From Ulota crispa (taxonomy: Eukaryota; Streptophyta; Bryopsida; Orthotrichales; Orthotrichaceae): a stretch of DNA of 64,000 bases. The stretch is from the NCBI GenBank assembly GCA_963920765.1, contig OY987242.1:16268002-16332001 (forward strand), written 5' to 3'. The first letter of the stretch is position 1. Every line of letters begins with the position of its first letter. Both the position numbers and the translations under genes were made by a program. The notes below the pieces were generated by a model, which saw only the letters and a program-made list of their open reading frames with translations, was not told the origin of the DNA and did not search any database. Positions 7,087-64,000 of the stretch are shown here, piece by piece.

Positions 7087-11154
<4,068 letters not shown>

Positions 11155-12275
11155 TCCTTCTATAAGCCAATTAGTGCTTTTTTTAATTCTTCCTCTGCCG
11201 ACCTTGATCTCTTTTTAGTTTTTAGTCTTTTTTTAGTTTTTTAGTTTCTGTGGCTTGCTACATTGTCCACCATTCTTCTGTTTGGTGGACAAATGGCATG
11301 TAGAAATGGTACTCTTATGTTTTTAGAGCACTTGCTTCTCTATTGCTTTCTTCACATGGGAGTACCATTGAGCTTTTTATTTACGTACTTGATGGCCATG
11401 TACAGATCTTGCAGTGCTCAATTGCGAGTCATGCCTCGTCAGGCCGGCATGCGTAAATAGGGATTTAGTTGGAGATCTTCAGGCTTGGTTAGTACCTGTC
11501 GTTTTGATCAGTGACTGACCCTGGAAATGTAGTAAAAAAGGCAAAGAGTTTCCCCTTGTATTGATATCAAGATTTCCCTTTGTATATGAAAAAAGTAAAC
11601 TTATTGTTGAGTTCTCTTCAGAGGTTGTTTGGTTTCTTTCTTAACTTTGTGAATGGTGTTGAAATGCAGTCACTTTGAGATTTGCTTCAAAATACGAGAA
11701 TATCCAATGGTTGGAATGCAATTTGAATCATGTTTGACATTTTTGACGTTACAATTTTGATGTTGGAATTGTGATGCTGGAATTGTGATGCTGGAATTGT
11801 GATGTTGGAATTATGATATTGAGATAATATGGGGTTGCGTGTACATGCGGAGAAACGACATCCTTTTTAGTAAATAAGCTCCCATGGAAGGCCACGGTGG
11901 AGGCCTTCAGTTCAGAAGAGCTGTGCAAAATATGTAATTGAGGGTCCTTCATTTGTCACATGGTGTGTCAAATATTGTATGGAACATTGGAGACGCCCTC
12001 ACGGATATGTTATATTAGGGCCCATGGCCAATTTAGAGTTGGCCCGATAATAGAGCCACCAATTAGGCTAGATCCTAATTCAAAGTCTTTGGACCCAATT
12101 GGTGGTTCGATTACAAATTAACAAATTAAGTTCAAGTTCTTGAATTAGGTCAATAAATTGTGATGCTTCATTTTTTTTGGTTTAAGCTAAATCTTAAAAA
12201 TTACCAAATCACCGTCCATCTCATCAAATTAGTCCTCAATATAAAGCCTTGGAGCACAATCAATCTTTTCTTATA

Positions 12276-12686
12276 GGGAATTGATATGTGTACCACACAC
12301 TTTGAACTACCGTACCACACCCCGGGGTAAATTTTAGATTTCTACCATCAAAAAGCTGAATCTGAGAATTTTGAATTCAGATTTGGACTTAGAGACCATG
12401 ATTTAGTCTAGAACCATAAAAAAAGTTGCAATTCAATGACACCCAATGAAAAAGTTTAGTTAGGGAGAAATGTGTTACTTCTACTTTTGTTTGTAAAAAA
12501 ATATAAGCTTTTTTGTTGAGTGTTGTTAAATTGCAACTTCTTATATGGTTCTAGACTAAGTCATGGTCTCTAAATCCAAATCTAGATTCAAAACTCTCAA
12601 ATTCAGCTTTTTGATGGTAGAAATCTAAAATTTACCCCGGGGTGTGATATAGTAGTTCAAAGGGTGTGGTACACATATCAATGCCC
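12276..12686. mobile_element. hAT-like foldback element, about 411 bp
   Basis: Ends GGGAATTGATATGTGTACC and the inverted GGTACACATATCAATGCCC. The inverted arms run for well over 100 bases. It is related to elements at 27781 and 63640 and shares its GGGAATT terminus and length with the 17451 element, which has an 8-bp duplication. Flanks here do not give a clear duplication. Confidence 0.6.
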
Positions 12687-17862: not shown

Positions 17863-18160
17863 TTTAAATATTATTAAGTAGACAATTCTGTCATGATCAA
17901 AGTTTCTAATGTTGGTGATCTTCATGATATGAGTTATTTCTGGTATCCTTATATTTGGTTTTTTTTTCTCATACTTAGGGCTTGATTAGAGCAATAATAG
18001 AAGTTGTAGATGCTAGTATTGTAACGTTGCCATAGTCAAATGCTAGACCTCATTGCAAGAAAGTCTAGATTGAGTACACATGTTGGGCTTAGAAATTCCA
18101 TGTATTGTGGGTGCTAATGTGAGTGAAGCCATTTACATCTATGTTGTTAACCAATATACT

Positions 18161-18467
18161 CTACACTGAATATTGCAAATAGGTTGCCTTGACAATTAGG
18201 TTGCTTTACCTTGGTAAGTTACCTCATGACTCATCACTTGGTCACTTGGAAGTACATGCAACTCTCTAATACTTGAATTTCACATAATCTATGAAATTCA
18301 AATTGTCAGTTTGTCTTTTAGTAGCTTCATTGTTGTTGACATGTCCTTTAAAAATTGTTTATTGTAGTAATATTTGATGAAAATTATTGTAGCAACAATA
18401 AATATTTATTTAGTGCAGAATGTTGAGAAATTAGTGTGGGACAACCCAAATGCAATATTTAGTGTAG
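18161..18467. mobile_element. Short TIR element, family D (inverted)
   Basis: CTACACTGAATATTGC at the left and the inverted GCAATATTTAGTGTAG at the right. The interior is the reverse complement of the HRD3 intron 4 copy. Confidence 0.75.
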
Positions 18468-19834
18468 TTAACTCAACTTGTCATTGTCGGCCATGACATA
18501 CCATAGAAACAATAGGCTCTATCCTTGTAGGACATGTTTGCTTTTTGAATAGAGTACCTACTCACTCTTTCAAGGTAGATTTTCAAATAGATTCTCTCAA
18601 TGCAAAATCTTGTCTCCTAGAACCATTGTCCATAACCATTTCAAGACAAGCAAGTGATGCTTTTGGGGTGCTCTTACCTCATTGTGTTTGTTTGGTTTGA
18701 GTCGTTCAAGTTATACAATTAGAGGTGCATTCATTAGTAGTTATAACAACAATGGTGAACATATTTGCACTTGAAGTTAAAAATTAGTGTTAGCAATGGC
18801 CTTAGGAATGCATTGTGATATACCCTTGACTAAATTTGCTTTGTTTGCATCACCCCTAGTTGTCACATGCAGTCACAATTTTAGAGTATCTCAACTCCAA
18901 CTTCCAAAAGCTACAATACAATTCTTTTCCATTTGCATACAAGTAAGAGTTTCCCCATTGGGGAGTACATTTATTAGAAGCGCACTAAAACATGAAATAA
19001 ACCAACCTTGAGTAGAACTAAGTTCTAAACAGTAGACATTTGAAACATTCTTGAAATTTCTTTGTTTTTTATTCTTGAACATTCTTTGTTTTCTATTCTT
19101 GTCTAAGAAAATCATCTCAAATAGCATCCTAGGAACACAAAAGGTACTCATGGGTTACCTAATTTCATAAATAGTTTTACAATGACTGTAGTGCTGATGG
19201 AGACACCTTCTGAATATGGCTCAAGAATCTTAAATTATTTGGTGTGGTTTTTAAATGAGTATCCTAAACACACTTCGATCAATTCCAAATCTGGTAATTC
19301 TAAAACTTGAAATAACATTTTTTGGGTTGCACAGTATATTATGCTAGCAACTTCTGTTCATTCATTTGGAAATTCTAAATTTTACGGCAAAATGAAAATC
19401 CAAAAAAGCACTACAAGAAAGTAAAAGTACAGTGTATGAGACCCAATGCAACAATTCCAAACCAGAAGTCCAGATTATTTCCAATCAAAACAAGTCTTTG
19501 GGCAACGATTGAACCATTCAAACATTCAAGATTAGATAGTCTTGCTGCCAAGCATTGTTTCATTGAATAGATTGAAGATGACTTCGTTTTTGAAATCAAC
19601 CCACCAGAATCTCTTTGGAGGGAAAAACAATCTTCAACGAACAATCTCCCTGGGTTGCAAATGCAACAATCCTACTGGAATGGAGATCCTTCAAGTTTAA
19701 GAAAATTTATCACGAAAACGAACAAAATCTCCATCAACAAATGGCTGTTGAGAAACGCCTGCAACCACTTCTCTGGCGGTTTAGGGTAACTAGGGAATTA
19801 ACGCCCAAGTCCATCTTTAAACTCTTGAATGTTT

Positions 19835-27780: not shown

Positions 27781-28185
27781 GGGAATTGCTATGTGCACAC
27801 CTGAGGTATGATATATGCACACTAAGGGGGGGTATATTTTAGTTTTTTACCATCAACAAGTGGAATTTGAAAATTTTGAATTTGGATCTAGATTTAGAGA
27901 CTTTGATTTAGTTTAGAACTACAAAGGAGGTTATGATTGAACAACAGCTAGTGGAAAAACTTAGCTAGGGGACAAAATTAATATTTTTGCACTTGTTTGT
28001 AAAAATGCTAAGCTCTTCCACTTGGCGTTGTTCAACTGTAACCTCATTTGTAGTTCTAAACTAAACCAAGGTCTTTAAATCCAAATCCAAAATTTTCAAA
28101 TTCCACTTGTTGATGGTAAAAAACTAAAATTTATCCCCCCTAGTGTGCATATATCATACCCCTAGTGTGCACATAGCAATTCTTG
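27781..28185. mobile_element. hAT-like foldback element, about 405 bp
   Basis: Ends GGGAATTGCTATGTGCACAC and the inverted GTGTGCACATAGCAATTC, with long imperfect arms including CCATCAACAAGTGGAATTTG and its complement. Related to the 12276 element. Confidence 0.65.
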
Positions 28186-29204: not shown

Positions 29205-29945
29205 ATGATTAATCTTTGGAGATGGCTTTGTGATGCAATAATGCCAACCAATAGTAAATAATAATGTTGCCACTTCCATCCTCAAAAAATTTAATTTCCT
29301 ATATCACATACTTGCATTCTTCAATGTCTAGTGCTTGCAACAATGGATGTTGTGAACCATTCATCTTCCTCTAATTAGAAAATTGAGTAAAAAAAGGTTG
29401 CAAAGTACTCACAATTGTTGCTCCCTACCTATTTTCAAAGTTGAGTGATATCCATCCTATATTGCATTCTAAAACTTGTTGTCTAGGGGTGCTACACCTC
29501 ACGAATTATAATTTTGTTGCCAACTAGCACACATGACACAACTTATTGTCCCTCAAAGTTCCAACCAAAGCATTCCTCTTAAAAATGCAAGCTCTTTGTT
29601 ATTCACATTTTAGTGGATAACTAGCCATAGGCACTTGCTACACTACGCATTCATCATTAATTTATGTAACAAATGTTTCAAATTACTTGGTAATAACAAT
29701 AGAAAAGTGAAATCATGAAAGTCCAAAGTTCCTCAAAATCTTGTAATGAAATGTGAAGCAAAGAGAAGCAATAAAAATCACACCCTCTTTAATATCACTT
29801 GGTGCACCCTCTCTAATATCACCTTAAATTCAATAGCTATTCCTTGATTTTCCATAATATCACACAGTGTCAAAGTGTTATATTACAAAGATGACTGTGA
29901 CTTTAGTAGTATGATGAATGAAGAGATCAGCCCACATCGGTTTAA

Positions 29946-30900
29946 CCCCTAAAGGACCAGGGGCGTTTTTTGAGAAAAAATCTTAGAAACTGTCAACTTT
30001 TAGTGCATTGCCCAAAATTTAAAATAAAAATCTTTTTTCTCAACTCCAGCCGTACAAAAGTGTGTCAAGTAGATAAATTAATGTGTGCAAAAGATTTCAG
30101 CCCATTTGACCACGCAGATTGTAAGATTATAACATTTGAAGTGAGAAAGATAGCTTTTTTTTCATTCTTGCAAAACAAGGTTAGTAGACTTTGACCCTTC
30201 CTAGAGTAAAATTTTTGCTCTACACAAATTTGAGCTTTTTAACCATTCACAAGTATATGATATTAGATTCACTCGTGAAATTTTTCAAATGCAAATATAG
30301 AGTCTAGCTTATTCTAAATCACCCTCCAATGCAAGGAGGTTTAGTGAATTAGCAATACGTTAGTCATTCTTTCATGATTTCTTGTGCAATGTGGAAGTTT
30401 TTTATTTGAAATCCAAAAGGTGAAAAGTTGGAGACAAACATTTGAAATATGTGAAAATAAATTCAAGAGCTTTAGATTTATAGATTGAAAGATAACATGG
30501 CTTGAAGTTAGAGGATGTTTTTTTTTCTTGAAACTGCCCAAACATAGTTAACAAAGTTTGACTCCCTTTAGAATGTGATGTGAGTCCTCAATTTGTTTAT
30601 TTTTTTGACAATTGTACACCATGTTTTTTTAGTTATATACTTGCCAAATTTCAAAAGTTGATGAGAGTTTTAGCATAAGATTCTCCAAAGATGCTCAAAC
30701 TGCCCAAACTACCCGATTTCTTTTGGACAACATAACTTCTGAACCAAGCATCTAATTAGGGAAAAAATTAGATTTCCATTTGGGAGATACATATTTGCAC
30801 TTTGTGTAACAATTTTGAGAACATCCAATAAAAATTAACTCCATACAACCCTACCCGAGTTCTCAAGTGGCTGTTGAACAGCAACTTGGTCCTTTAGGGG
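29946..30900. mobile_element. 955-bp TTAA element (CCCCTAAAGGACCA termini)
   Basis: CCCCTAAAGGACCA at the left, its exact inverse TGGTCCTTTAGGGG (one extra T just inside) at the right, flanked by TTAA on both sides. No transposase frame. The longest well-bounded element of the CCC...GGG group in the window. Confidence 0.75.
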
Positions 30901-31081
30901 TTAAACTAGTTAGATCTGAAAAAAATTGGCTCCATTTTGCTAGAAAAAAAATGCTCTAGTTTTGACCTCTTTGTGGACTCTTGGAATGCCGCCATCTTCT
31001 GTGGGTCAAGCTTAGCACTTTCTGTTGTATATGCAGAATTTAGTTTCAAAGGAGGGTGACATAGTTGGGCAGGCCCCAAGG

Positions 31082-32790
31082 CTAGTAGCCCATGGCCAGC
31101 GTTAGTTTCCCCAGCACTCCAATCTTGATGGCCTTCTCATAAGGCACGGGCAGAAACAACAGCCCCTCGCGATGCAACCGCCCGCGCACCAGTAGCCCCG
31201 TGCCCCCGACGCCATCTAGCTTCACCACACTCGCATTCCCCCCTCGCAGATCCCCTAGCGCGACGCGCCCCGTTGAGTATGCCGAGAACCCTTTGAGCAC
31301 TACCACCTCCCGCGTCCACTGCACGAACCTCTGAGACTCCTCGGTCTCTTGCCAGCTGTTCCAATCATATGGCCGCTTCTCGCCCTTCTTGTTCCGCCAG
31401 AAACTATTCGGCACCAGAATGTGCTTCTCTGGACCCGTGAAGCGCAACAGATCCTCCACCAACGTCAATGCGTACTGCGACACGTCGAAGTCGATCCACA
31501 GGACCCACTCGTGGTGCGGACGAAGCGCCAAGAACAGCAGGTAGTTCCGGCTCTTGGCCAGCACGGTTTGCTGCAGGATCTGGTTGCGCATGCTGTGGGT
31601 GTCCAGCCAGTCCTCCCCGAGGTTGTATCCAAAGTCTTGGTGGACCAGAATCACGTCCCTGTATCTCTCACTTTGGTTGGTGACGCTGTGCTGTCGGTGG
31701 ATGAAGTGGTTGCGGACTCGCGCGTACGAGCTGTCGTGACTGTTGGAAACGAGGAACCCGAGAGAGATGGCGTTTTGAGGGTAGGAGAGCGAGTGCAGGA
31801 GCGTGAAGTACCGGTCCATGTGGTTGCTGACTCTCTTGAGCGGGGACAGGATCAGCACACTCGGGTGGCGGGTGTGCAGCACTTTGGATCCTGGCACTTT
31901 TGCTGTAGATTGTAGAATCTCGGTGAGAATCTCTAATGGTTGGGCTGGCATCCCTTTATCGTTGACTTTTGTTTGCAAGCATAAGCACAAATCACGATAT
32001 TCATTAGATTGGGAAAAAAGGCAAATTTTGGGACTTCTGAAGGTTTAAGGTGATCACCTCAAATTGAGCTCTCATGTTTTTTGGTACACGTGTCCTCATT
32101 TGAGAGGAGGAATTTGCAAGGGAACAAATCTAAGTGTCTCAAATTGAATCTGATACCTTCAAATCTGGTTTAAGGTGACTTTTTTGGTTTCAGGTGAAGT
32201 ACAATTTAGGAATCGCGTTTTCCCAATCTAATGAATATTGTGTTACAAGCATCCACCGCAACCTCGTTAGCAAAACTGGTATGCCCAAAGTTAGTCTAGC
32301 AAGGCATCTGCATTCTGTGTCTATAGTCTAGCAAGTTATTTTGCATTTCGGCAAGAAATAGAGTCTGATAATTGCAGAAACTTTTAGTACAGAGACTTTC
32401 ATAAGACCAATGAAACTGTAGAGAGACCTCTCCGTGAGGAAGATACTCTTTGTGATTTTGTTACGAGTTCTGAACATGATGAAGATCCCCCCCTCTTTTG
32501 TGTTAGAAATCTGACAAGGCATTTATGGTTTCTACTAACTTCAATGAATGTTTGCAATAAGGAAGAAGAAGTGAAAGTGTACTCACCAAATGTCCATTGT
32601 TTTCAAGTGATTGCTGGTCTGTAGATGAATTCAAGGCCTTGCTACAACCAAACCAGCTAAAGCCGAAGATGATCAACAGCAGGTTCCATAAAATAGTGCC
32701 AGCAATTGTTGCAAAGTAAATCCCCTTTCTGATCACCATAGCTCTCGGCATGCCTTGAATCAAAAACTCATCAAGAATAATGTGCATCAT
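31082..32790 (-). CDS. GT62 (Anp1/Mnn9-type) glycosyltransferase, type II membrane protein
   Basis: Predicted Golgi glycosyltransferase of the family whose fungal members build alpha-1,6-mannan; its substrate in a plant is unknown. The main exon (31082 to about 31930-31968) shows the family landmarks in order: VLILSPLKRV, SLGFLVS, the metal-binding WIDFDV (DxD type), ILVPNSFW, YDWNSWQE and LDGVGG. The N-terminal exon (32790 or, preferred, the ATG at 32751, down to 32587) encodes a short cytosolic tail and one hydrophobic anchor (ATIAGTILWNLLLIIFGF). Its donor GTGAGT is clear, but the join to the main exon is not resolved. The most obvious acceptors are out of phase, so either a later acceptor (near 31930) or a small exon around 32400-32508 is used. 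Translation stops at a TAG immediately before an in-frame GLPNYV-like motif. The intron holds a TIR element. Confidence 0.75.
31993..32242. mobile_element. 250-bp inverted-repeat element in the GT62 intron
   Basis: Left end CACGATATTCATTAGATTGG, right end the inverted CCAATCTAATGAATATTGTG. Two inner AAGGTGA/TCACCT blocks lie between. Non-coding; it lies just upstream (in gene direction) of the main GT62 exon. Confidence 0.65.
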
Positions 32791-39327: not shown

Positions 39328-39655
39328 CCATGATTTTTGAACCACAATGATGAAAACTCCAATCCCAAGATGTTCTGTAAAAAATTTTCTAATCACATAC
39401 TCTATGTAGGAGAACAAGCAAAGTTTGTGTTAAAGCTAGAATGGCTGCTACAATGCCAAATCATTTACAATTAAAGAATCACAAAAGAGCATCTCTTAAA
39501 AATTGATCTCATGGAACTTTAGGGTCCATAGATAAAGTAGGATCCTCTAAACTTGACTCCATTGCCGACACTATATAACGCCAAGTCTATACAGTACCCT
39601 AAACCCTAATTCAGTAAGAAGAAACAAGAAGCGTAGATGTACAGCATCTGAAAGC

Positions 39656-40058
39656 TACACAAAATAGTGCATTTTAGTTGCTATACACTAATTTCTTGAC
39701 ATTTACACTATAAAAATACCTATATAAAGGCTTACCGATATTACAATAATTTTCATTAATAATTATTATAATGAACAATTTTTAACAACAATAATGACTT
39801 AAGATAAGTTCACTCTTGGTGTTAGGAGGGGTATTAACAATATGAGTGTAGTCTAAAGGTGTGTCCAAAATTCCAAGTGCATCATTATCCTTAGCTACTA
39901 CCACTCTTAACACCAAGTGTGAATACACCTTTAGCAACAACAATGATGCTGCTTGTCTAAACTATAAACCATGTGAAACCCTAGTATTTAGAGCCCCAAG
40001 TGGCCAAGCTATGAGTCATGAGGTAGTTTTCCAAAGTAAGGCAAGGCACCCTAAATGC
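39656..40058. mobile_element. Family D element carrying a nested family F element
   Basis: CTACAC start, CACTAATTTCTTGACAT and CATAAACCATGTGAAA...CCAAGTGGCCAA blocks identify family D. It is interrupted at 39796-39930 and its right end is cut by the family A element at 40063. Confidence 0.65.
39796..39930. mobile_element. Small family F element nested in family D
   Basis: Inverted ends AGTTCACTCTTGGTGTTAGG and CTTAACACCAAGTGTGAA. Shares GTAGTCTAAAGGTG blocks (inverted) with the 14051 element. Confidence 0.55.
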
Positions 40059-40062
40059 ACAA

Positions 40063-40376
40063 AGGTAGGAGCACCCATAAGCAACGTTGTTCCCATAACC
40101 TTCAGCTCTGAAATCTTAGAAAATCTTTGGAGGTAAATTGATGTAATGACAAGGATATACTACATGTGAACATGAAATCTTGATAGTGGTTATGGGTACA
40201 ATGACAGTTTGTTCTTTAAAAATTCACAACTTATTCTCAGAGTATCCAAATAATACATTCAAAATTGCAAACTCATTATTTTTCTATTCTTGATAGGATC
40301 TTATAATTTGCTAGTTGTTTATTAATACTCATCATGTTCAAAACCCTTAGATTGACGCTTATAGGTGCTCCTACCT
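40063..40376. mobile_element. Short TIR element, family A (inverted)
   Basis: Ends AGGTAGGAGCACCCATAAGC and the inverted TTATAGGTGCTCCTACCT. TA follows the right end; the left flank reads AA. Confidence 0.8.
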
Positions 40377-50110: not shown

Positions 50111-50781
50111 TACACGAGTCAAAAGTTTGGGTAGGTAAAAAATAAATAATATTTTTTTGCGTGAGAAAAAAGTGACGTTCTCCTTTTACTACGTGGGTCA
50201 AAAATCCTATGGAACAAAAAATGCTTTATTGCAAGGGAATATTTTGCAAACAAAGACAAATGTTTTATTGCATGGTTAAAGTTTGAAATTGGGGTGCACA
50301 AATAAAAAGCAAGAATTATTTTTGTAGGGGGAAATGTTCTACGTAATTGGGCCTGAAATTATTTTGCATCCCGTTGGACCAACATGTGCCTATACAAGTG
50401 TTCAATAATTATAATCAATTGAAGTTGGTATCTTCTATCCAAGTATGGAAAATTTTAATTTAAGAGTAATGTGGCAATAGTATACATGATTTCACTTACA
50501 CTAAGTAGAGGATTTAGGTTGCCTCACGGCCCACATTAATTTATCAACATTCTACACTGCATAAATACTAAGTGGTTATACAATAACTTTCATCAATAAT
50601 TAATGCAACAAACAAATTTTAAGGGCTTGGCAATAACAATGAAATTGCATAAAAACAAACTAGCAAGATTTTGGTCATAAACCATGCAAAGTTCAAATAT
50701 TTAAAGATTTGTATGCACCTCCAAGTAGTCAATCAATGAATCATGAGGTAACTTTCTAAGGTAAGGCAACCTAATTGTTAA

Positions 50782-51014
50782 CCCATGAGCGCCCAGCTCA
50801 AAATCCACCCAACGTAAACCTCCCGGCAATCAAAACAATGTGCAATTTGGATGGTATTGCCACCTCTTGGTATTATGGATCACAAGTTGTTCCCAATTCT
50901 CCTACTACCCTTGTACTATTCAAAGCTTGTTATAGTACAATCGGTACATTTGTGTGAATAGGATTCTTTCTTCAATTTCCAACGACGGGATCCCATCTCT
51001 TGGGCGCTCAGGGG
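50782..51014. mobile_element. TTAA element 1 of a tandem trio
   Basis: CCCATGAGCGCCCA at the left and the inverted TGGGCGCTCAGGGG at the right, with TTAA at 50778-50781 and 51015-51018. 233 bp, non-coding. Confidence 0.8.
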
Positions 51015-51018
51015 TTAA

Positions 51019-51235
51019 CCCTTGAATGGCCCATCGGCCATCTCTAGCCGTATGTACGGCCATATATATAGCCGTATTTGAGTTGCTTTGAGGGCTTTCC
51101 AAAAAAAATGCACTCACCATCGTACAGCCCTTCAATATGTATGGTTGTAATACTTTGTAGCTAATTCAAACTTCTGAATATTGATTGCGACTGTATTTGG
51201 AACCATATCTCTAGAGCCCAAGGGCCCTTCAAGGA
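51019..51235. mobile_element. TTAA element 2 of a tandem trio
   Basis: CCCTTGAATGGCCC at the left and the inverted GGGCCCTTCAAGGA at the right. It shares its left TTAA with element 1 and its right TTAA (51236-51239) with element 3. 217 bp, with an internal GGCCATATATATAGCCG palindrome region. Confidence 0.8.
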
Positions 51236-51239
51236 TTAA

Positions 51240-51471
51240 CCCTTCACCGCCCATCCCTTGTTTGAGACGACATGCTCCAAGACCTTCTTGCATCACTTTC
51301 CCACAACTATGTGGATGAAAATGACAAATTCTGGCGTTAGGTAAGATTGCGAGGGGGGAGGCGATGTAAGATGCATCGTTAAATTTTAAAATTTTGATTG
51401 ACCATGCAAGTCCAATTCACCAAAATTGAAAAGCCGAGTGGACATAATATGGCCGCTTGGGCGGCCTAGGG
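51240..51471. mobile_element. TTAA element 3 of a tandem trio
   Basis: CCCTTCACCGCCCA at the left and the inverted TGGGCGGCCTAGGG at the right. TTAA on both sides (51236-51239, 51472-51475). 232 bp. The interior does not match elements 1 or 2. Confidence 0.8.
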
Positions 51472-51647
51472 TTAAGGTAACCTAAATGCACTATTTTGTG
51501 TAGGTTTTCTAGGGTAAGGTAAAAAAGCTTTGTTCTGCTAATAGGGGTGCAAAATCAGTACAATATTGTAGTAAGTAACATAATTTTGATTACATTACGA
51601 GTAGTATGAGTTTGTAAATCAATATGAGGGCACTAATAGGATACATA

Positions 51648-62552: not shown

Positions 62553-63639
62553 TTAAAAGATTGCTAACTTTGACACATCTATAATAATCATTCCCAAAAC
62601 CTTGGGTTTGTCAAACTTGTAAGTAGTTTATCCTATTATCACTTTGACCCTATTATCACTTCTTTGTCTTCAAATTATGATATCATATAGGGTTTAGTTT
62701 CAAATCCGGGCTAACATGTATCACAAGGAAAGTCTTAAAGTCCCTTGTTTAAGAGCACATTTATTTTTTCCATTTGACCAAAATTTGCAAAAGATATAGT
62801 GTATTAGCTATGAAGGCCTCAATTAAACACACAATTTATCACCCCAATGCCTTTGCTATAGCAAATGTCAATTGTAAAATACCAAAAATAACTGAAATTT
62901 GTTAGTTTAGCTATCACTTATGGATGACCACAAAGGCCAAGGAAAGGAAAAAGAAATTCATAGATGAAAATGACAAAATATGATCATTTATGAGAGTGAA
63001 AATTTGTAAGGAAGGCAAATTCAAAATTGAGCTTATCCTTGACTTTACCTCATTGTAACCTTAATAACTACCTCATGCTTCACTCCTTTAAGAGTTTTAA
63101 ATTTATAAAAAATCTTGACTTGATTATCTTTCAAATGATACCATAACCACGACATCTAGTGAATTGTAGCTTTTGTAATTTATATTTGACTTAAGACTTA
63201 ATGATAAAAGGGTAAATTGCCTATATATATTTTGTGTCCCAATTTGGTGAGAGGCGTAATTAGGACTAGTTTCCATAGAAGACCGGAATTGGAGGGGGAG
63301 GGACCTCTAGGCTGACCCAAACAGAATGAAGAAAAATTCTTGAAATGTTCAAAATGCGGAGAGTTTGGAAAGCAACCTTTGATTTTGGATCTAGACCTTC
63401 TAGTCATGTAGTTTGACTTTTATAGAATTGGATGCTGGACGACTAGGCTTGGACTCCACTAGCCCCCCATGGAAACTGGCTCTTAAGCACCTTGCCCACA
63501 ATTTTTTTTTCTGGCGTTTAAACGCCATATTTGCAATAGTGAGATTTAGTTTAGGCAAATGCTTTGCTGTCCCTCAAAAAATCCACCTCAGCTAAGGGCA
63601 CATAGGGATTTACATTGTAGCTAAAGTATCCAAAAAAAA

Positions 63640-64000
63640 GGAATTGATATATGCGTACCAGGGGATTGATATTTGCACATCCCATGGGGTAAATTTAGAC
63701 TTCTACCATCATAAAGCTGAATTTGAGAATTTTGAATTCAAATTTGGACTTAGAGACCATGATTTAGTCTAGAACCGTAAAAAAGTTGCAATTCAACAAC
63801 ACCCAATGAAAAAGCTTATTTTTTTTACAAACAAAAGTAAAAGTAACACTTTTCCCCCTAGCTAAACTTTTTCATTGGGTGTTGTTGAATTGCAACATTT
63901 GTTATGATTCATGGCCTCTAAGTCTAAATCTGAATTCAAAATTCTCAAATTCAGCTTTATGATGATAGAAATCTAAAATTTATCCGCAGGGTGTGCAAAT
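63640..64000. mobile_element. hAT-like foldback element, truncated by the window edge
   Basis: Starts GGAATTGATATATGCGTACC and contains the same arms as the 12276 element (CTACCATCATAAAGCTGAAT and, inverted, ATTCAGCTTTATGATGATAG). Confidence 0.6.

Follow-up and report, generated by a model that had tools for sequence, protein, structure and literature searches.

What brought three different miniature elements together, head to tail and with a single TTAA between neighbours, inside an older element of the moss Ulota crispa? The stack lies in a window of 64,000 nucleotides (the whole stretch of DNA that we analysed) on contig C1 (41.4 Mb) of a genome of 274.8 Mb. The transposase of piggyBac, a genome-engineering workhorse known mainly from animals and fungi, joins the ends of its element at TTAA, which is thereby copied on both sides. 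We consider it very probable that the three segments, here E1, E2 and E3, are non-autonomous PiggyBac/TTAA MITEs, each inserted in trans by a piggyBac-family transposase and stacked through the reuse of TTAA.

Three abutting elements and their target site

The stack occupies positions 50778-51475 in the order TTAA-E1-TTAA-E2-TTAA-E3-TTAA, inside a family D element. A TTAA at 50778-50781 forms the left boundary of E1 (233 bp, 50782-51014, plus strand, ends CCCATGAGCGCCCA and CCCCTGAGCGCCCA, terminal match 13/15), and the TTAA at 51015-51018 is common to E1 and E2 (217 bp, 51019-51235, plus strand, ends CCCTTGAATGGCCC and TCCTTGAAGGGCCC, terminal match 12/15). A further common TTAA (51236-51239) joins E2 to E3 (232 bp, 51240-51471, plus strand, ends CCCTTCACCGCCCA and CCCTAGGCCGCCCA, terminal match 11/15), whose right boundary is the TTAA at 51472-51475. 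The terminal starts are CCCAT/CCCCT in E1, CCCTT/TCCTT in E2, where the right terminal base is A (GGA-TTAA), and CCCTT/CCCTA in E3, which carries two extra TTAAs in its interior (51379 and 51386), neither of them an element end. With 217-233 bp, or at most 77 codons, the three are too short to encode a transposase. A paired-end scan (TTAA-CC...GG-TTAA, span up to 400 bp, at least 11 of 15 terminal matches) recovered 3 elements in the window against a mean of 0 in 50 order-1 Markov shuffles, which rules out a chance origin of the stacked ends. The initial annotation had described TTAA-bounded segments of 217-233 bp with their own inverted ends, and by coordinates and scan this description is exact to the base.

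When longer spans were allowed, the scan also gave a TTAA element outside the stack, at 29942-30904 (plus strand), with 955 bp between its TTAAs and ends CCCCTAAAGGACCA. Its family is very large, with 2030 first-look candidates genome-wide; the 40 that were scored are mostly 90-93% identical, and the copies are closer to one another than those of E1 or E3. Other features of the window include a repeat of about 400 bp (12272-12686, 27781-28182 and 63632-64000), matched by locus L071 on both strands at two of the three places, which is a probable fold-back element. An Anp1-domain glycosyltransferase is encoded at 31082-32044 (minus strand); its best named relative among the matches listed is a protein of the moss Ceratodon purpureus, 67% identical and outranked by two unnamed proteins, and the other named matches are mainly fungal among 120 of 145 listed. 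XS and zf-XS domains were also found.

The flanks of the stack align with the two halves of one family D element, as had been claimed. The left part (50511-50777, plus strand), which belongs to the older target, was delimited by alignment to an uninterrupted D copy at about 8971-9274, with 72.7% identity over 271 columns between 50513-50781 and 8988-9239. The right part (51476-51502, plus strand, GGTAACCTAAATGCA) aligns with the same copy just past its TTAA. At the insertion place the uninterrupted copy reads CCTAATTG-TTAA-GGCAACC and the interrupted one CCTAATTG-TTAA-CCC ... GGG-TTAA-GGTAACC. The single TTAA reported for the empty copy is indeed there, at 9236-9239 and not at about 9229 as first given. 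Two more D copies were aligned as empty sites, as had been proposed: the one aligned at 18169-18458 (minus strand) is empty at the insertion place but reads TTGTCAAGG, with TCAA instead of a perfect TTAA, and the one aligned at 39651-40057 lacks the stretch. The empty site is a paralogous and not an orthologous one. The element boundaries together with this site back the claim that each insertion copied a TTAA and reused a TTAA. Family D itself, represented in the window at 8971-9274, 18149-18478, 39631-40080 and 50492-51516, ends in inverted repeats some 28 bp long (roughly CTACACTRAATATTGCATTTAGGTTGCC), with a short direct repeat on the right; no clear target duplication was seen around its copies in the window.

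Each of the three elements is dispersed on its own. Searched alone against the whole genome, E1 gave 16 matches including itself, E2 gave 2002 first-look candidates (40 scored, 30 retrieved including itself) and E3 gave 6 including itself, 4 of which cover only the first ~147 positions. At least two of these partial E3 matches (L042 and L043) have an inverted end with TTAA at about 245 bp. TTAA coincides with the borders of many copies, and is exact on both sides in 20 of the 30 retrieved E2 copies; in the remaining 10, mostly one side deviates. No head-to-tail pair among E1, E2 and E3 was present in the 41 other retrieved loci of these elements, although in L006 an E2 fragment lies ~67 bp away from E1. 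A single unit in which E1, E2 and E3 always travel together is therefore ruled out, and the independence of the three, read at first from the window alone, agrees with the genome-wide search.

A piggyBac transposase in the same genome

Elements of this size would need a transposase from elsewhere. PF13843, the piggyBac catalytic domain, has at least 120 matches in the genome (best E 1.3e-73, with 116 of 528 candidates scored); 14 control genomes gave no match, and the majority of the listed frames are interrupted by stops. The best-scoring match is surrounded by a complete element on contig C3, with 5,019 bp between its TTAAs and ends CCCCTCATCGCCAA/CCCTTCATTGCCAA, so that a PF13843 transposase stands between TTAA-flanked inverted ends. 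These ends were located as TTAACCCCTCATCGCCAA at 13130262 and, on the opposite strand and read inward, TTAACCCTTCATTGCCAA at 13135271. The PF13843 domain of this copy carries one TGA and one TAG. An uninterrupted 329-aa piece of the frame matches PF13843 (6.1e-61) and, in the PDB, piggyBac 6x67 (1.6e-25) and piggyBat 9c0f (2.7e-21), while in a large protein collection it found 32 proteins, all with PF13843, the best with 51% identity over the full length. In locus L068, whose domain is free of stops, a D occupies the positions that align with D268 and D346 of 6x67, as it does the position that aligns with the aspartate of the piggyBat motif GVDRADQ, which we take by homology to be the third catalytic residue of piggyBat. 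For piggyBac, the available portion of PMC7351741 names D268, D346 and D447 as catalytic.

Two matching ends were obtained at one of the six retrieved transposase loci. No recognisable left end was found at the other five within the stretches examined, and the right-side end at L070 is probably that of a MITE next to it. L067 and L068 have an upstream coding stretch in common (38% over 45 residues; E 6e-6 when a small set of open pieces was compared), so the left ends may lie beyond the stretches examined. This upstream part (690-1061 in L067, a 116 aa piece from 525 onwards in L068) contains a common QIAKLLGW-like motif, and that of L067 matched no Pfam family. Stop-free PF13843 frames at C1:1180709-1181995 and C8:19570986-19572215, each matched in two stretches, are possible domesticated piggyBac genes. 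Additionally, a TTAACCCCTAAAGG element that forms a long near-perfect palindrome, a fold-back MITE, lies to the left of the full piggyBac copy, some 0.7 kb away (L073 930-1655, C3:13128829 onwards).

The ends of the stack resemble those of the C3 element to different degrees. The left end of E3 differs from the pattern made from the C3 ends by 1 mismatch in 18, its right end agrees at 8 of 14 bases, the ends of E1 at 9-11/14 and those of E2 at 6-9/14. With one mismatch allowed, the C3-end pattern occurs at 1,212 places genome-wide against 8 for the reversed pattern; among 100 matches listed there are 12 facing sets, and the 9 that span 629-655 bp look like miniature relatives of the C3 element. 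An autonomous element with the ends of E1 (CCCYTGAGCGCCCA) or of E2 (CCCYTGAACGGCCC) was not found. Two intervals of 4.6-5.0 kb between facing E1/E2-type ends contain no frame longer than 103 aa and were rejected as autonomous relatives, having no long frame. Beyond the ends, BLAST of the transposase loci against E1-E3 gave no similarity except a small stacked MITE in L072; an E2-type end beside a C1 transposase, promising at first, is in fact such a small stacked MITE. Of the longer relatives with a transposase that had been sought, one was found whose ends come close to the left end of E3 in sequence, and none with the ends of E1 or E2. The PF13843 matches and the one full-length copy with related ends support a piggyBac source, which had been named as a candidate, at the superfamily level for E1-E3, and near the family level only for the left end of E3. 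Since many of the end matches are only partial, our confidence in the assignment to PiggyBac MITEs is limited to that extent.

Frequency and origin of shared TTAAs

The ends of such elements are abundant. TTAACCCNTRA occurs 58,253 times genome-wide and its reversed pattern 3,545 times, an excess of ~55,000 ends; for TTAACCCNTGARNGSCC the counts are 4,483 places and, read backwards, 3. At a TTAA density of 6.55 per kb, sampled in 80 kb (8 of 120 randomly drawn stretches), the genome has ~1.80 million TTAAs. About 3% of them border an element, and therefore much stacking is expected. Nevertheless, TTAAs with ends on both sides number 1,501 against the 417 expected if left and right ends were independent, with 0 in the reversed control; the E1/E2 junction at 51015-51018 is itself among the junction-pattern matches listed. 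The excess is 3.6-fold at the sampled density and 2.5-fold if the lower TTAA density of the window (4.64 per kb) is used. An earlier count with one pattern had given 330 stacked ends of 4,483, against 68 to 214 expected and 7 matches for a near-miss control pattern with one letter changed; the symmetric count of 1,501 is cleaner.

Twelve junction loci were chosen by hand from the junction-pattern listing, and elements with at least 10 of 15 terminal matches were scored as complete. L055, L056 and L057, chosen for two close junctions, each consist of three abutting elements, the first of which in L055 has an altered inner end that the scan left unpaired. Among the other nine, complete elements lie on both sides of the junction in L059, L065 and L066, on one side in L061, L062 and L064, and on neither in L058, L060 and L063. 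The triple stack of the window is not alone, and such stacks recur across the genome. In the loci retrieved with the elements, a loose paired-end rule, which admits some spurious long pairings, found 11 of 42 loci abutted against 26 of 873 background TTAAs. When ends were judged strictly, abutment was seen at 4 of the 64 focal boundary TTAAs, one of them in the stack of the window itself; therefore the retrieved loci alone show little excess.

The cause of the junction excess may lie in a preference for ends, in clustering at a finer scale or in the copying of composites. It is a real possibility, if short of probable, that the excess comes from regional clustering of insertions, or from their loss elsewhere, and is unrelated to the targeting of ends. 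The flanks of the 42 retrieved loci, which are top matches and not a random set, contain 0.0477 ends per TTAA against 0.0304 in the genome, 1.57 times more. However, this local rate still gives only about 653 expected junctions against the 1,501 observed, a 2.3-fold excess. It is conceivable, though less likely than not, that in this lineage the transposase, or the ends to which it is bound, actively prefers TTAAs that abut an end; every insertion would then refresh and sharpen the target for the next, which would build landing pads, shield genes and sometimes yield mobile composites. The stack is largely the outcome of dense TTAA-specific insertion, with a modest contribution from a preference for existing ends or from clustering at them. 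In the initial annotation the stacking was taken to suggest repeated targeting of element ends; the 2.3- to 3.6-fold excess agrees with it in part, but much of the stacking is expected and regional clustering may contribute, so the claim was overstated.

Abutting elements could also be mobilised by their outermost ends, a whole stack being copied as one, and we regard this as improbable. When 29 GGRTTAAYCC places were compared pairwise, 5 pairs aligned across the junction; they include L020, L035 and L063, where the two elements are alike and the outer flanks differ, and L055 with L061. Yet the E2 copies of L020 and L035 are not sisters in a star-like, poorly resolved tree without support values, two abundant families may stack twice in one order by chance, and E1, E2 and E3 never recur together in the 41 loci described above.

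Our preferred explanation remains that a piggyBac-family transposase, supplied in trans, inserted each element at TTAA. The first arrival would have entered a TTAA within the family D element, and each later one would have gone into a TTAA that an element already bordered, so that the members follow one another head to tail with TTAAs in common. TTAA-specific cut-and-paste in trans accounts for the duplicated TTAAs, for the form of the ends and for the renewed use of a freshly made TTAA. Tens of thousands of such elements turn around 3% of TTAAs into element borders, which is why stacks recur, and TTAAs that abut an end are hit, or kept, 2.3-3.6 times as often as independent targeting predicts. 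From the anatomy we infer the mobilisation of E1 and E2, and of E3, by a piggyBac-type transposase; the structure alone gives no order, and any sequence of arrivals within the stack, like the cause of the junction excess, is likewise inferred.

Comparison with described elements

Sola3 transposons also duplicate TTAA. It is very unlikely that Sola3, Kolobok or a TA-duplicating superfamily that has ACCC..GGGT ends and favours TTAA made the stack: TTAA is palindromic, and a TA duplication with a terminal A/T would be indistinguishable from it by sequence, but the transposase of the full-length element, whose ends are related, is a piggyBac one, and the CC..GG ends found here set aside Kolobok, whose termini are 5'-RR..YY-3' in the accessible part of PMC9587614. 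MITE multimers and nested MITEs are known in grasses, where Tourist and Stowaway elements inserted at the target duplications of other MITEs; they differ from the present elements in belonging to other superfamilies, with TTA or TA as target sites. The piggyBac superfamily, with Trichoplusia ni piggyBac and bat piggyBat, is like our elements in its TTAA duplication, its CCC..GGG ends and its PF13843 transposase with aligned catalytic aspartates. The differences are the plant host, the upstream coding stretch of the full copy, for which no Pfam family was matched, and the length of that copy, 5.0 kb against the 2,472 bp of a well-defined piggyBac in the consulted part of PMC10813416.

PiggyBac/TTAA MITEs have a TTAA duplication and terminal inverted repeats of about 12-19 bp that start with CCC; E1-E3 agree with both, and a piggyBac transposase source is present in the same genome, though most listed frames carry stops. 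Terminal repeats of such MITEs start with CC[C/T]T in the available sections of PMC2872659, and those of PMC10813416 give CACTA, CCCTC, CCCTT and CCCAT as starts of piggyBac ends; CCCCT, CCCTA and TCCTT are absent from these published lists, as far as the portions at hand extend. A close likeness is to the CMITEs of Acropora corals, which in the same part of PMC2872659 are short TTAA elements whose ends are piggyBac-like, whose interiors have little in common with the autonomous element, and which also form tandem arrays. Those arrays consist of highly similar copies and spacers and are ascribed there by the authors to replication slippage, whereas in Ulota crispa different families abut across one TTAA.

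The kind of element is already known, as PiggyBac/TTAA MITEs, and E1-E3 are new members of it. The earlier statement that small elements in plants are not usually traced to piggyBac needs some correction, as PiggyBac is counted among seven angiosperm MITE superfamilies in the available part of PMC10004981, and a C-fern assembly table lists 1,230 PiggyBac copies with 122,417 bases in the portion of PMC6890710 at hand. Within the accessible open-access literature on piggyBac in plants and mosses we found no report of moss piggyBac MITEs, nor, in the open-access texts available, a comparable scale or counted end-to-end stacking of TTAA elements. Tens of thousands of piggyBac-type MITEs in a moss would record on a large scale which TTAAs are chosen in nature, and through the 1,501 shared-TTAA junctions a preference of the transposase for its own ends becomes countable.
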